Source: Hymenobacter sp. YIM 151858-1 (GTDB taxonomy: Bacteria > Bacteroidota > Bacteroidia > Cytophagales > Hymenobacteraceae). From it: 64,000 nt of DNA. The stretch covers positions 4,278,001-4,342,000 of the forward strand of contig NZ_CP110136.1 of assembly GCF_025979705.1 (NCBI RefSeq), in the 5' to 3' direction. Positions 646-64,000 of the stretch are shown here, in pieces. How positions within the stretch are numbered: position 1 is the stretch's first letter; each line of letters starts with the position of its first letter. The position numbers were made by a program, and so were the translations under genes. The notes under the pieces were generated by a model that was given only the letters and a program-made list of their open reading frames with translations, was not told the origin of the DNA and did no database searches.

Positions 646-2418
646 TTGGAAAACCGCGCCCTCATTCGCGCCTTTCGGCTGATGGCCCAGCTGCTGGAGC
701 TGCACGACGAAAACCCCTTTAAGGTGCGCGCCTACGAAAGCGCCGCCGCTGCCCTGGAGCGCCTCGAGCAGCCCCTGGCCTCGCTCGACCCAAGCGAGTT
801 TACCACCGTGGCGGGCCTGGGTAAAGGTGCCGCTGTGGCGGCGCAGGAGCTGTTGCGCACCGGCACCTTCCCCGAGCTGGCGCGCCTGCAGGCCGCCACA
901 CCGCCCGGCGTTATCAGCATGCTGAGCATCAAAGGCTTCGGGCCGAAAAAAATCCGGGTGCTGTGGCGCGAGCTGGGCGTCGAAACCATTGATGCCCTGC
1001 GCGAAGCCGCCGAGCAAAACCGCGTGGCTGCGCTCAAAGGCTTTGGGGCCAAAACCCAGGATGCCATTTTGCAGGCGTTGGAGTTTACGGCCCAAAGCCA
1101 GGGCAAGCTGCTCATCAGCCAGGGCCAGGCCCTAGGTGCCCAGCTGGTGGCGCTGCTGCAGGAGGCCGTGCGCACCGAGCAAGTAGCCGTGGCCGGCGAG
1201 GTGCGCCGCGCCCTGCCGGTGGTTGAAACCGTGCGGGTAGTGGTGGGCACCAACCAGGCCTGGGCCGTGCACGAGGCCCTAGGTGCCGTGGAGGGCTTAG
1301 CGGCCGATGAGGCCAACTCGGGCCCGTTTGTGTGGCGCGGCACGGCGCAGGAGTCGGGCGTGAAGGTGGAGGTGCAGATTGCTACCCCCGAGAATTACAC
1401 CAACTGCCTGTTTCTGCAAACTGGCTCCGATGCTCACCTCACGGCGCCCCTAGGTGCCAAAGCACCGGCGGCCACGCTGCGCCAGCTGGTGCGCCAAACC
1501 AAGTTTTTTAGCGAAGCGGCCATTTACGAAAAGGCTGGCCTGCAGTACATCGAGCCCGAAATGCGCGAAGGCGCCGGCGAGATTGAAGAGGCCGCCGCGC
1601 ACAAGCTGCCCACGCTGCTCACCGAGGCCGATTTGCGCGGCTCTTTGCACAACCACAGCACCTACTCCGACGGCGCCCACTCCTTGCGCCAGATGGCCGA
1701 GTTCCTGCGCGACAACGGCTACCAGTACCTCGGCATCTGCGACCATTCGCGCGCCGCGCACTACGCCAACGGCCTCAGCATCGAGCGGGTGGAGCAGCAG
1801 CACCAGGAGATTGAGCGCCTCAACCGCGAGCTGGCGCCCTTCCGCATCTTTAAAGGCATCGAGTCGGACATCCTGTCCGATGGCTCGCTCGATTACCCCG
1901 ACGACGTGCTGGCTTCCTTCGACTTTGTGGTGGCCTCGGTGCACTCGGGGCTGAAGATGGACAAGGAGCGCGCCACCGAGCGCCTGCTGCGCGCCATTGC
2001 CAACCCGTACTGCACCATGCTGGGCCACCCCACGGGCCGCCTGCTGCTGCGCCGCGAAGGCTACCCGCTCGATTACGAAGCCATCATCGACGCCTGCGCC
2101 GAGCACAACGTGGCCATCGAAATCAACTCCAACCCCTGGCGCCTCGACCTCGACTGGCACTGGGTGCGCTACGCCCTAGGTAAAGGTGTGCGCCTGAGCA
2201 TCAACCCCGATGCCCACCACACCGATGGCTACGCCGACATGCAATACGGCGTGCAGCAGGGCCGCAAGGGCGGCCTCACGGCGGCCATGACGCTGAATGC
2301 CCTGACGGTAGACGAGCTGGCCGCCTATTTCGAGCAGCGCCGCGCGCAGGCCGTTAAGTTTTCAAGCCCCAAACCCGCCGCCCGGAAACCTGCCGACTTC
2401 GGCCCGCTGTTCGGCTAA
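646..2418 (+). CDS. PolX-like protein: degenerate family X polymerase core with intact PHP domain
   Basis: About 590 residues with the PolX architecture: helical 8-kDa/helix-hairpin-helix region (residues 1-150, GLGKGAA, IKGFGPKK, LKGFGAKT), a palm-like region (about 150-300) and a C-terminal PHP phosphoesterase domain (about 325-570). The PHP metal motifs are intact: HNHSTYSDG, ICDHS, GIESDIL, ASVHSG, LGHPTG, EINSN and NPDAHH. In the palm, the family signature GSxRR...DxD reads GEVRRALPVVETV, and the third carboxylate strand reads VEVQ, so the catalytic aspartates are missing. A phosphoesterase or exonuclease role is therefore more likely than polymerisation. I start at TTG 646 (LENRALIRAF), which fits the family N-terminus; an in-frame ATG lies at 571. 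It contains four CCTAGG words. Confidence 0.85.
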   Translation: MENRALIRAFRLMAQLLELHDENPFKVRAYESAAAALERLEQPLASLDPSEFTTVAGLGKGAAVAAQELLRTGTFPELARLQAATPPGVISMLSIKGFGPKKIRVLWRELGVETIDALREAAEQNRVAALKGFGAKTQDAILQALEFTAQSQGKLLISQGQALGAQLVALLQEAVRTEQVAVAGEVRRALPVVETVRVVVGTNQAWAVHEALGAVEGLAADEANSGPFVWRGTAQESGVKVEVQIATPENYTNCLFLQTGSDAHLTAPLGAKAPAATLRQLVRQTKFFSEAAIYEKAGLQYIEPEMREGAGEIEEAAAHKLPTLLTEADLRGSLHNHSTYSDGAHSLRQMAEFLRDNGYQYLGICDHSRAAHYANGLSIERVEQQHQEIERLNRELAPFRIFKGIESDILSDGSLDYPDDVLASFDFVVASVHSGLKMDKERATERLLRAIANPYCTMLGHPTGRLLLRREGYPLDYEAIIDACAEHNVAIEINSNPWRLDLDWHWVRYALGKGVRLSINPDAHHTDGYADMQYGVQQGRKGGLTAAMTLNALTVDELAAYFEQRRAQAVKFSSPKPAARKPADFGPLFG

Positions 2419-2420
2419 GT

Positions 2421-2443
2421 AGCGCCGAGTAGCACTCGGCGCT
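2421..2443. repeat. Palindromic hairpin agcgccgagt/actcggcgct
   Basis: Perfect 10-bp inverted repeat with a 3-base loop just after the PolX-like stop codon. Nearly the same core recurs at 2520-2542. Without a T-run it is not a classic terminator. Confidence 0.75.
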
Positions 2444-2512
2444 GGCGCTGCGGGCGCCAATTTGGGGCCGCGCCGTGTGGCTTGAATTGCGCAGCCCCGC
2501 ATGGTCGGCTTT

Positions 2513-62616: not shown

Positions 62617-62759
62617 GGGCCGCGGGCAAGCTCGGCTACATCGCAATTGGGCAGGGTGCGTATGGGAAGGGTATCGGCCCAGCGGCCCTAGGTGCCCGCC
62701 GCCCGGCGGGGCCGGGCCACCTCGGTGGGGCGAGTATCCACGTCAAAATATCCTTCCCG

Positions 62760-63896
62760 ATGACCGTTAAGCTCAAACCGCTCGATCAGCAAACCATTGT
62801 AATTACCGGCGCCAGCTCGGGCATTGGCCGCGTTACGGCTTTGCAGGCCGCTGCCAAGGGCGCCAACGTAGTGCTGGCCGCCCGCAGCGAAGACGAGCTG
62901 CGCAAAGTGGAGCAGGAAATTACCAGCCAGGGCGGCCAGGCCCTGGTGGTGGTAACCGATGTAGCCAGCCGCGCCGATATCCGCCGCCTCGCCGACCGCG
63001 CCATCGACCATTTCGGCGGCTTCGATACGTGGGTAAACGACGCGGGCATCTCCATTTGGGGCCGCCTCGACGAGGTAAGCGACTACGACCACCGCCGCCT
63101 TTTCGAAACCAATTTCTGGGGCGTCAGCAACGGTTCGCTCGAGGCCATTAAGCACCTGCGGCGGCACGGCGGCGCGCTCATCAACGTGGGCAGCGTGGCG
63201 TCGGATGTGGCCATTCCGCTGCAGGGCATGTACTGCGCCAGCAAGCACGCCATCAAGGGGTTTACCGACGCCTTGCGCCTGGAGCTGGAAGAAGTGGGCG
63301 CCCCCGTTTCGGTTACCCTGATTAAGCCCGCGGCCATCAACACGCCGTTTCCGCAGCACGCCCGCAACTACATGGAGAAGGAGCCCAAGCTGCCCCCGCC
63401 CGTGTACGAGCCCGAGGAGGTAGCCGCCGCCATTTTGCACGCCGCCACGCACCCCGAGCGCGACATTTACGTGGGCGGCGGCGGCAAGCTGATGAGCACC
63501 CTCAACAAGCACCTGCCCCGCGCCATGGACCGCCTCAGCGAAACCCTGATGGTGGAGCAGCAGCAGCGCAACGAGCGGCCGCGCAAGCCGCAGGGCTCGT
63601 TGCACCAGGCCAGCCACGGCGGCCCCGTGCGCGGCGACCACCCCGGCTACGTCATGAAAACCAGCCTGTATACCCGCGCCGCCCTGCACCCCTGGGCCGC
63701 GGGCGCCCTGATGGCCCTGGCCAGTGCCGCCGCGGTGGCGCTGCTGGGCGGCAAGCGCAATAAGCGCGCTGCTACCACGGCTGCACCCGATGCCGGCATA
63801 ACGCCCGACTACACCAGCCGCCCGCCCGTGCCGGTGGCGCAAAGCCCGGGGCTGGGTGCCGTGGGCACCACCAACCAGGCCGGCGCCGGCATCTGA
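62760..63896 (+). CDS. Short-chain dehydrogenase with C-terminal membrane segment
   Basis: A 378-residue SDR. The NAD(P) motif is IVITGASSGIGRVTALQ; NDAGISIWG and the YCASKHAIKGF catalytic Tyr/Lys follow. The classical domain ends at about residue 260; a tail of about 110 residues follows with one hydrophobic segment (HPWAAGALMALASAAAVALLGG) and a low-complexity end. Homologues with the tail occur in other bacteria as 'SDR family oxidoreductase'; substrate not known. Start at ATG 62760; the longer frame upstream overlaps the previous gene. Confidence 0.9.
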   Translation: MTVKLKPLDQQTIVITGASSGIGRVTALQAAAKGANVVLAARSEDELRKVEQEITSQGGQALVVVTDVASRADIRRLADRAIDHFGGFDTWVNDAGISIWGRLDEVSDYDHRRLFETNFWGVSNGSLEAIKHLRRHGGALINVGSVASDVAIPLQGMYCASKHAIKGFTDALRLELEEVGAPVSVTLIKPAAINTPFPQHARNYMEKEPKLPPPVYEPEEVAAAILHAATHPERDIYVGGGGKLMSTLNKHLPRAMDRLSETLMVEQQQRNERPRKPQGSLHQASHGGPVRGDHPGYVMKTSLYTRAALHPWAAGALMALASAAAVALLGGKRNKRAATTAAPDAGITPDYTSRPPVPVAQSPGLGAVGTTNQAGAGI

Positions 63897-64000
63897 TCGG
63901 GCCAGTGCTTTTGCCTGAGGCGGCACCGCAGTGGTAAAAAGTTGTTTGCCTTATACTTGCGGGCAGCCTGCCGGGCCCTGCCGGTGGCGGGGTGCCTAGG
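63897..64000. other. Right-end intergenic sequence
   Basis: No gene. TATACTTG (63952-63959) is one mismatch from a -7 box and could serve a gene beyond the window. A CCTAGG forms the last six bases. Confidence 0.3.

Follow-up and report, generated by a model that had tools for sequence, protein, structure and literature searches.

An asymmetric heptamer, CCTAGGT, iterated across the chromosome of Hymenobacter sp. YIM 151858-1 and a possible local dialect of DNA words in the Hymenobacteraceae

The window analyzed here, a 64,000-nucleotide stretch of Hymenobacter sp. YIM 151858-1 (contig NZ_CP110136.1, positions 4,278,001 to 4,342,000), is strewn with the word CCTAGG, which lies both in genes (trmD and panB among them) and in the spacers between genes. 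We counted 79 copies, compared to a mean of 14.2 and a maximum of 29 in dinucleotide-preserving shuffles and to 14.1 expected under an order-3 Markov model; CCTAGG is the top-ranked 6-mer of the window under Markov orders 1 to 3, and 79 of the 122 CTAG tetramers lie within it. These counts bear out the original prediction, made from the sequence alone, of about 79 sites, well above chance, that take up some 79 of about 125 CTAG. Under an order-4 model the excess is almost gone (79 versus 67.8), because the enriched 5-mers already belong to that model. A search of Rfam gave no match in the window.

The excess is not confined to the window. Our chromosome sample of 424 kb (the window and 18 stretches of 20 kb) has 517 CCTAGG versus 86 expected (order 3), or 1.22 per kb, and the whole genome has 5,096 copies of the heptamer CCTAGGT, 2,561 on the forward and 2,535 on the reverse strand. 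Neither outcome that would have refuted the original prediction, a genome without excess or an excess limited to the window, was thus obtained. Two chromosome stretches of lower G+C content are poorer in CCTAGG (0.85 and 0.50 per kb). The two smaller contigs (158 and 101 kb), sampled over their first 20 kb, gave 2 and 0 copies of CCTAGG; the smaller of them resembles, among the matches listed, Hymenobacter plasmids bearing conjugation-type genes. CCTAGGT is thus nearly absent from the sampled plasmid-contig DNA (two stretches).

The enriched unit is the asymmetric heptamer CCTAGGT, best written as CCCTAGGT, rather than the palindrome CCTAGG that had been proposed. Among 1,032 oriented CCTAGG sites, 614 read CCCTAGGT/ACCTAGGG, 270 read GCCTAGGT/ACCTAGGC, and 70 have neither a preceding A nor a following T. 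When expectation is computed with CCTAGG masked from the background, sites with A before or T after number 962 versus 37.4 expected (25.7-fold), whereas those with neither number 70 versus 58.3 (1.2-fold), the highest of these forms being CCCTAGGG (14 versus 4.6). For our genome these flank statistics rule out a palindromic reading of the kind given to the highly iterated palindromes (HIPs) of cyanobacteria. Enrichment is 66-fold for CCCTAGGT, about 14-fold for GCCTAGGT and TCCTAGGT, and 3.5-fold for ACCTAGGT, so the first base of CCCTAGGT is graded (C 66-fold, G and T 14-fold, A 3.5-fold); each of the 21 words that are one base off at positions 2 to 8 occurs at 0 to 3.0 times expectation, and the 6-mer neighbors of the word are about as abundant as in congeners that lack it. 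Given this strict core and graded first base, a reader would have to depend on each of the seven bases, with an eighth carrying graded weight. A long interspersed repeat is excluded as the source of CCCTAGGT by a flank identity of only 28% across 307 copies.

Within the window, CCTAGGT lies in genes on the forward strand at 1131-1137, 1278-1284, 1449-1455, 2175-2181, 8709-8715 (the same in the related genomes G010 and G025), 13308-13314, 18572-18578, 24679-24685, 26008-26014, 28546-28552 (trmD), 29573-29579, 33388-33394 (panB), 35896-35902, 38029-38035, 39614-39620, 41278-41284, 45652-45658, 45757-45763, 49450-49456, 54222-54228, 54621-54627, 55510-55516, 56704-56710, 61971-61977, and 62687-62693, and on the reverse strand at 2960-2966, 6133-6139, 13349-13355, 13865-13871, 14249-14255, 16825-16831, 20948-20954, 21053-21059, 24152-24158, 25092-25098, 34259-34265, 35172-35178, 39025-39031, 46730-46736, 51100-51106, 51163-51169, 56025-56031, and 57630-57636. 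Two forward-strand sites, 38763-38769 and 61631-61637, fall where a gene ends and a spacer begins. Intergenic sites are found on the forward strand at 4278-4284, 7767-7773, 15188-15194, 16286-16292, 30717-30723, 30833-30839, 31994-32000, 32958-32964, 43870-43876, 45264-45270, 47463-47469, 47917-47923, and 56518-56524, and on the reverse strand at 6221-6227, 10143-10149 (also the same in G010 and G025), 12387-12393, 20476-20482, 29345-29351, 30931-30937, 32913-32919, 42586-42592, 43677-43683, 47951-47957, 51513-51519, and 58534-58540. ACCTAGGT, which carries the word on both strands, occurs at 17632-17639 (genic) and 23827-23834 (intergenic). A small number of sites form close inverted pairs, for example those at 47917 and 47951. 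The sites at 30833 and 30931 lie inside, and that at 30717 beside, an intergenic tract (30725-31001) built of a short dispersed repeat, whose pieces of about 30 to 290 bp are 66 to 97% identical and which has matches in all seven congeners searched (among the matches listed).

The split between genic and intergenic sites rests on a simple codon-scored gene caller rather than on an annotation; by this measure CCTAGGT density is 0.83 per kb in genes and 2.53 per kb in spacers, a threefold difference, and among spacers it is 5.0 per kb in convergent, 2.7 in tandem, and 2.1 in divergent ones. The frame of the genic sites is mostly CTA-GG (Leu-Gly; 259 of 287 CCTAGGT), as the original prediction had it, and TAG is never in frame. 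CTA is indeed a rare Leu codon (644 of 12,347 in the sample), and 275 of those CTA codons lie inside CCTAGG. The reported absence of sites from serS, rpsP, rplS, and folE is correct for each gene, but means little, since their 2.8 kb at 0.83 per kb would predict only about 2.4 sites. Examination of strand and replichore, proposed as a further check, revealed equal use of both strands and no clear trend of CCTAGGT along the sampled chromosome (origin and terminus positions were not used); in the two halves of the sampled chromosome, the strand ratio of CCCTAGGT is 83:69 and 75:80.

We compared the spacing of 457 sites in 17 chromosomal stretches, leaving out the lower-G+C stretches L009 and L026, with simulations that keep the genic and intergenic counts. 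The coefficient of variation of the gaps is 0.915 versus 1.009 simulated (P = 0.013), gaps shorter than 100 bp number 36 versus 58, and the variance/mean ratio in 2-kb bins is 0.74 versus 1.03 (P = 0.003). Up to 150 control 7-mers were drawn, and each of the 34 that passed a filter is less evenly spaced than CCTAGGT. Among nine further sets from relatives with the same or other words, G025 and G058 are even by all three measures (short gaps in G058, 3 versus 17.5 expected), G010 by the coefficient of variation only (P = 0.028), and G171 by 2-kb bins only (P = 0.003), while a set of two Pontibacter loci is depleted only in short gaps (9 versus 15.4, P = 0.021).

Eight species of the genus to which the window belongs (g1) were compared, and CCTAGGT divides them sharply. 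The count in related genomes that had been suggested gave, next to the 5,096 copies in this genome (G000), 5,341 in G010 and 5,823 in G025, versus 76, 35, 70, 93, and 84 in five other congeners. The three carriers are 87 to 89% identical to each other within the window; between this genome and the five noncarriers, which are 78 to 80% identical to it in aligned DNA, the count differs 55- to 166-fold. The 10-mer CCCTAGGTGC reaches at least 20 copies in 9 of 200 family genomes. In the five noncarriers CCTAGGT looks depleted; an order-2 Markov model on their 20-kb samples predicts about 1 to 1.5 copies per 20 kb.

Other members of the Hymenobacteraceae have other words. Besides dialect A (CCCTAGGT in G000, G010, and G025), we distinguished dialect B (CCCTAGGG in Hymenobacter polaris [G058], with 50 sites versus 1.5 expected in 80 kb, and in G137, with G184 weak), dialect C (ACCTAGGT with relatives in G180, Hymenobacter cavernae [G079], and G178), dialect D (GCTAGCC, 4.6-fold, in G031 and weaker in G036 and G049), dialect E (CCTACCC in G113, G052, G091, and G198), dialect F (GGGGCCC, 4.8-fold and clustered, in G055, G081, and Hymenobacter caeli), and dialect G (TAGGCCA in G171, G162, and G172). 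Further words are GCCCCCCA in Hymenobacter BT188, AAGTATAA in Pontibacter chinhatensis and P. cellulosilyticus, and AGGTATAG in P. roseus; the Pontibacter words are AT-rich, and CCCTAGGG, ACCTAGGT, and GGCTAGCC are palindromic. Least pronounced are dialects D and F, the latter of which may be something different. About ten words are present in the family, eight of which can be read by eye as NNN-TA-NNN; GGGGCCCC and GCCCCCCA cannot. The 12 dialect sets have total densities of 0.8 to 2.5 per kb, with sites both genic and intergenic (at almost equal densities in D and F), and the flanks of the words are unrelated, so they are not long repeats. The G113 word, GGGTAGGG, has mixed strand counts over four stretches (22:10, 9:34, 16:7, and 6:7). 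No word stood out in many of the sampled genomes, including the five congeners (20-kb samples), Pontibacter silvestris, and Rufibacter ruber. We counted G184 as a carrier for its 404 copies of CCCTAGGTGC, its 20-kb sample being weak; G137 and G184 have about 400 CCCTAGGTGC each, G137 also has an excess of CCCTAGGG, and a dialect may be in transition there.

The scan for words was too loose to be used as such, reporting some word in 75 of 75 family samples and in 61 of 62 others; only z-scores were used, and since z rises with sample size, 80-kb samples are not comparable with 20-kb ones. The samples of G026 and G040 were excluded, and the first G025 stretch, which was all N, was replaced by later ones. 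None of the 62 analyzable loci from other Bacteroidota was accepted as carrying a comparable isolated word: outside the family two Dokdonia loci score highest (z of 19.9 and 18.5), followed by a triplet repeat (13.4), the others reported being at most 10.9. In the Dokdonia loci a strong word stands between flanks that are conserved in part (44%, an intermediate value), and these loci pass the repeat filter; there (L242 and L247), TCGCGAAA/CGCGAAAG occurs in 8 to 12 copies in 21 kb, perhaps as an intergenic repeat family. Within the family, G015 and G035, which we counted as wordless, reach z of 13.9 and 14.7 in 80-kb samples with codon-like words, and one Hymenobacter metagenome-assembled genome reaches 14.1 with a word that we placed in no dialect. 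The flank test did flag true repeats, namely, AGAGATGC in H. polaris (55%) and a long repeat in Salinimicrobium (68%); the former belongs to a dispersed repeat (L041 and L177 to L179; 21 oriented copies in 80 kb) distinct from the CCCTAGGG word. In Adhaeribacter aerolatus (L208), ATCCGGA occurs 21 times versus 2.9 expected with unrelated flanks and is possibly another dialect.

Comparison of sites among carriers and congeners indicates how the word is kept. Where carriers have CCTAGGT, the congeners often show codons such as CTGGGC, and at 21 sites the outgroup consensus is one (3 sites), two (3), three (11), four (1), or five (3) bases away from the word. Outgroup-invariant residues are kept at 36 of 39 motif codons; the amino acid cost of the word is not significant (36/39 versus 5,851/6,114; Fisher P = 0.24). 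Between carrier pairs, each taken both ways so that the counts are not independent, conservation exceeds expectation at all bases but one, the exception being the second C in genes (0.920 versus 0.942) and the A in spacers (0.790 versus 0.802). Mean conservation is 0.91 versus 0.84 for genic sites and about 0.89 for intergenic ones, the flanks of the latter standing at 0.68 and expectation at 0.80 to 0.82; by our arithmetic, the word is substituted at about one-third to one-half of the rate of its surroundings. In pairwise comparisons the whole site is exactly conserved in 48 of 73 cases within genes and in 16 of 32 cases in spacers, versus 0.49 to 0.50 and 0.25 to 0.30 for control 7-mers. On these grounds the sites appear to be held rather than drifting. 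Other findings point in the opposite direction. The third base of the Gly codon is conserved no more strongly inside the word (0.75 to 0.82) than in Leu-Gly pairs elsewhere (0.75 to 0.81), and by a simple control both the gain rate (3 of 184 opportunities versus 0.011) and the single-base loss rate (20 of 97 versus 0.23) are near those of ordinary words.

In triple alignments with overlaps merged, the three carriers have the word in common at 25 sites, two of them at 26, and a single one at 13; a star tree predicts about 47 losses, and double losses alone would account for about 9 of the 13 singletons. Gains now look much rarer than losses, and build-up of the word may be largely ancestral, although this picture of gains and losses is tentative because the alignment favors shared sites. 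We rejected gain by multibase rewriting, as 19 unmerged singletons (12, 4, 2, and 1 at one, two, three, and four bases) fit ordinary substitution.

We searched 31 or 32 genomes for gene families that might read the word. Of five methyltransferase families (PF00145, PF01555, PF02384, PF07669, and PF02086), none has an above-cutoff match in all three carriers: G010 has only PF02384 and G025 only PF01555, while G000, G010, and several congeners share a weak, subcutoff PF07669 match. Among these families we thus found no methyltransferase common to the carriers, whether type II, type I-like, Eco57I-type, or D12, and the suggested link to a methyltransferase did not materialize. The four CCTACCC genomes of group E likewise have none of the five in common. 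PF02384 is present in every member of groups B, C, D, F, and G (and in 29 of 32 genomes overall), PF07669 in every member of B, C, and D, and PF01555 in every member of F. PilB/PilT-type ATPases (PF00437) are over the cutoff in 1 of 32 genomes, one of the 11 without a dialect, and two dialect genomes have weak subcutoff matches. ComEC was found in 32 of 32 genomes, as was a PDDEXK_1 protein (open frame of 819 to 1,218 codons) that by size and domain is AddB-like. When the three carriers are compared with the five congeners, this AddB-like protein is not markedly shifted: identity is 0.82 between the groups and 0.85 among congeners (0.92 to 0.93 and 0.95, respectively, in columns 180 to 300), its 13 diagnostic columns are scattered with none in 180 to 300, and its largest dips are at columns 900 to 960 (0.69 versus 0.79) and 540 to 600 (0.81 versus 0.90). 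HIP-type methylation and pilus-borne DNA uptake receptors, the two best-known accounts of iterated words, are therefore both left without a machine by these searches, and Chi is without polarity or a changed reader.

That the word is read and maintained is supported, with reservations, and the family seems to have something that reads and maintains a genome-wide signature able to change. On this view the Hymenobacteraceae would share a system of iterated words, CCTAGGT being its local dialect, with a protein that, judging from the strict core and equal strand use, reads a seven- to eight-base word. Copies would be favored wherever coding sequence permits, in keeping with the conservation footprint and the silent and intergenic placement that we observed, by selection or by an inferred molecular drive. 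As for what the word does, our first choice, which we hold with somewhat less than even confidence, is a signal for recognition or uptake of self DNA by a machine without type IV pili; uptake was also on the list of the original prediction. By analogy, the reader would be a surface or periplasmic receptor of a natural-transformation machine; word-bearing DNA would be preferentially taken up or recombined, so that the word spreads in the population and the chromosome gains about one copy per 0.8 kb, while plasmids and fresh islands would be without it. A change in receptor specificity would found a new dialect, and loss of the receptor would leave a lineage with none. The system is most like the DNA uptake sequences (DUS) of Neisseriaceae in that the word is asymmetric and strict, has dialects within the family, favors neither strand, is almost missing from the sampled plasmid DNA, and is maintained at silent positions. 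The even spacing in G000, G025, G058, and (by the coefficient of variation) G010 also speaks in favor. Natural transformation does occur in the phylum: Riemerella transforms with ComEC, DprA, ComF, RecA, and four essential proteins without homology to known transformation machinery (PMC8459023) and favors its own DNA (PMC7965970). Its transformation genes include those of a DUF5689/DUF5017 surface protein with an outer-membrane partner and of HHH and DUF1343 proteins (PMC8459023).

Several observations weigh against an uptake signal. Known DUS tolerate mismatches, whereas one-off words here are near background. Recent gains appear to be much rarer than losses, and any drive may have weakened. 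G113, G031, and G180 show no evenness on any spacing measure, and GGGGCCC in G055 is clustered, not even. PilB/PilT-type ATPases belong to the known DUS apparatus, but none of the 21 dialect genomes has a PF00437 match over the cutoff, so that we rejected a type IV pilus or type II secretion ATPase of this family as the machine; ComEC does not discriminate, since genomes lacking a dialect have it just as regularly, and the family searches that we made (five methyltransferases, PF00437, ComEC, and the AddB-like protein) pinpointed no receptor gene. Pili may also take part in Bacteroidota: the two papers consider type IV pilus-like homologues in Flavobacterium (PMC7965970) and describe one Riemerella protein as predicted to be fimbrial (PMC8459023). 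The step from "read and maintained" to "uptake" is one that we infer by analogy.

Methylation, repair, and chromosome organization, all named in the original prediction, stay as rivals. A methyltransferase might recognize the word, which would arise and persist through a repair bias directed by methylation; relatives would then have alternative HIPs with other methyltransferases. The density near one per kb, the genic presence, and the replacement of words between species match HIP1 and alternative HIPs (PMC4390886); several dialects are palindromic, and some methyltransferase family occurs in every member of five of seven dialect groups, although PF02384 is nearly ubiquitous. Our own word is asymmetric, however, the Pontibacter words are AT-rich, and neither the carriers nor group E share any of the five families, a test that an ancestral methyltransferase since lost, or one of another family, would escape. 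We regard this explanation as rather unlikely, and we give the same weight to a chromosome-organizing or genome-maintenance protein with a specificity that drifts between clades and selection for regular coverage at about one site per kb. Even spacing with few short gaps in both this genome and G058, the conservation footprint, near absence from the sampled plasmid-contig DNA, and strand independence would all suit such a protein; but congeners that are 78 to 80% identical have only 35 to 93 copies and no comparable word that stood out in 20-kb samples, which is hard to reconcile with a basic chromosome function, and evenness fails in the four genomes noted above.

It is improbable that there is no reader at all, the word being a product of codon usage or mutational bias or the decaying relic of a past burst. 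By parsimony the three carriers have lost more sites than they have gained, a simple control puts gain and single-base loss near the rates of other words, and genic sites lie mostly on Leu-Gly pairs with 36 of 39 outgroup-invariant residues kept. Yet codon usage cannot be the cause of a word three times as dense between genes as within them, one-off words are near background, and the footprint and even spacing suggest a reader, at least until recently. Least probable, and already disfavored, is a Chi-like recombination signal read by AddAB: seven to eight bases long, strongly over-represented, and species-specific, the word looks the part, and all 32 genomes have the AddB-like protein, but the word lacks polarity, the protein is not markedly shifted where the dialect differs, and several dialects are palindromic.

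To our knowledge, a reader is known for only a handful of iterated genome words: Chi, the FtsK-orienting polar sequences (KOPS), and DUS; HIP1 has resisted explanation. Like CCTAGGT, the Chi sites of RecBCD/AddAB are short, over-represented, and species-specific; they differ from it in polarity and in that we saw no marked AddB-like shift between carriers and congeners. KOPS, read by FtsK, have the consensus GGGNAGGG in Escherichia coli; the G113 word happens to fit it, but our own word has no polarity and the G113 stretches are mixed. The uptake signal sequences (USS) of Pasteurellaceae, of which we know only two subtypes, are also iterated asymmetric words on both strands, but with another word, apparatus, and phylum. 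The presence of an asymmetric word in thousands of copies on both strands is a feature that CCTAGGT has in common with USS and DUS. The closest precedent is the DUS of Neisseriaceae, a short asymmetric word read by the pilin ComP, in thousands of copies and clade-specific dialects (PMC3630211); there are eight dialects with the core CTG in common, some members lack any word, and single-base effects are graded. Most of the words here can be read by eye as having a TA core, and wordless members occur in both families; the differences are that carriers here have no type IV pilus ATPase over the cutoff, that one-off variants are near background, that the phylum is Bacteroidota, and that uptake is proposed by analogy only. 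Because the pilus feature was sought without success, we do not class the word as a DUS. HIP1 (GCGATCGC) and the alternative HIPs of cyanobacteria occur about once per kb, in genes, and are replaced by other words in some genomes (PMC4390886), as here, and 1.22 CCTAGG per kb, with sites in genes, agrees with the range of about 0.5 to 2.5 sites per kb that marks HIPs. The claim of a HIP1-like word thus holds for its excess, its one site per 0.8 kb or so, its genic sites, and the other words in relatives, but not for palindromy; because palindromy is lacking and the carriers have none of the five methyltransferase families in common, we do not file it as a HIP. The AT-rich words are a further difference.

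We found no report of such words in this family among open-licence papers, as judged by titles and the starts of abstracts. It is conceivable, though we consider it doubtful, that the Hymenobacteraceae hold the first self-DNA signature system outside the Proteobacteria, with clade-specific, mostly TA-centered words of 7 to 8 bases, a pilus-independent receptor for transformation or other DNA transfer, dialect switching within a genus, and a genetic barrier between species. The sharp difference in count between congeners, together with the words of other clades, means that the reader can be hunted in a handful of species. If CCTAGGT is an uptake signal, it would provide a gene-exchange specificity system for Bacteroidota and could serve to transform both Hymenobacter and Pontibacter; otherwise, it would offer a test case, possibly independent of methylation, for the function of HIP-like words.

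Other 6-mers depart from expectation as well. TCCGGA (146 versus 54) and TGCGCA (772 versus 451, both strands) are mildly over-represented in our chromosome sample, and in the window CGATCG (1 copy) and TCGCGA (2 copies) are strongly depleted.

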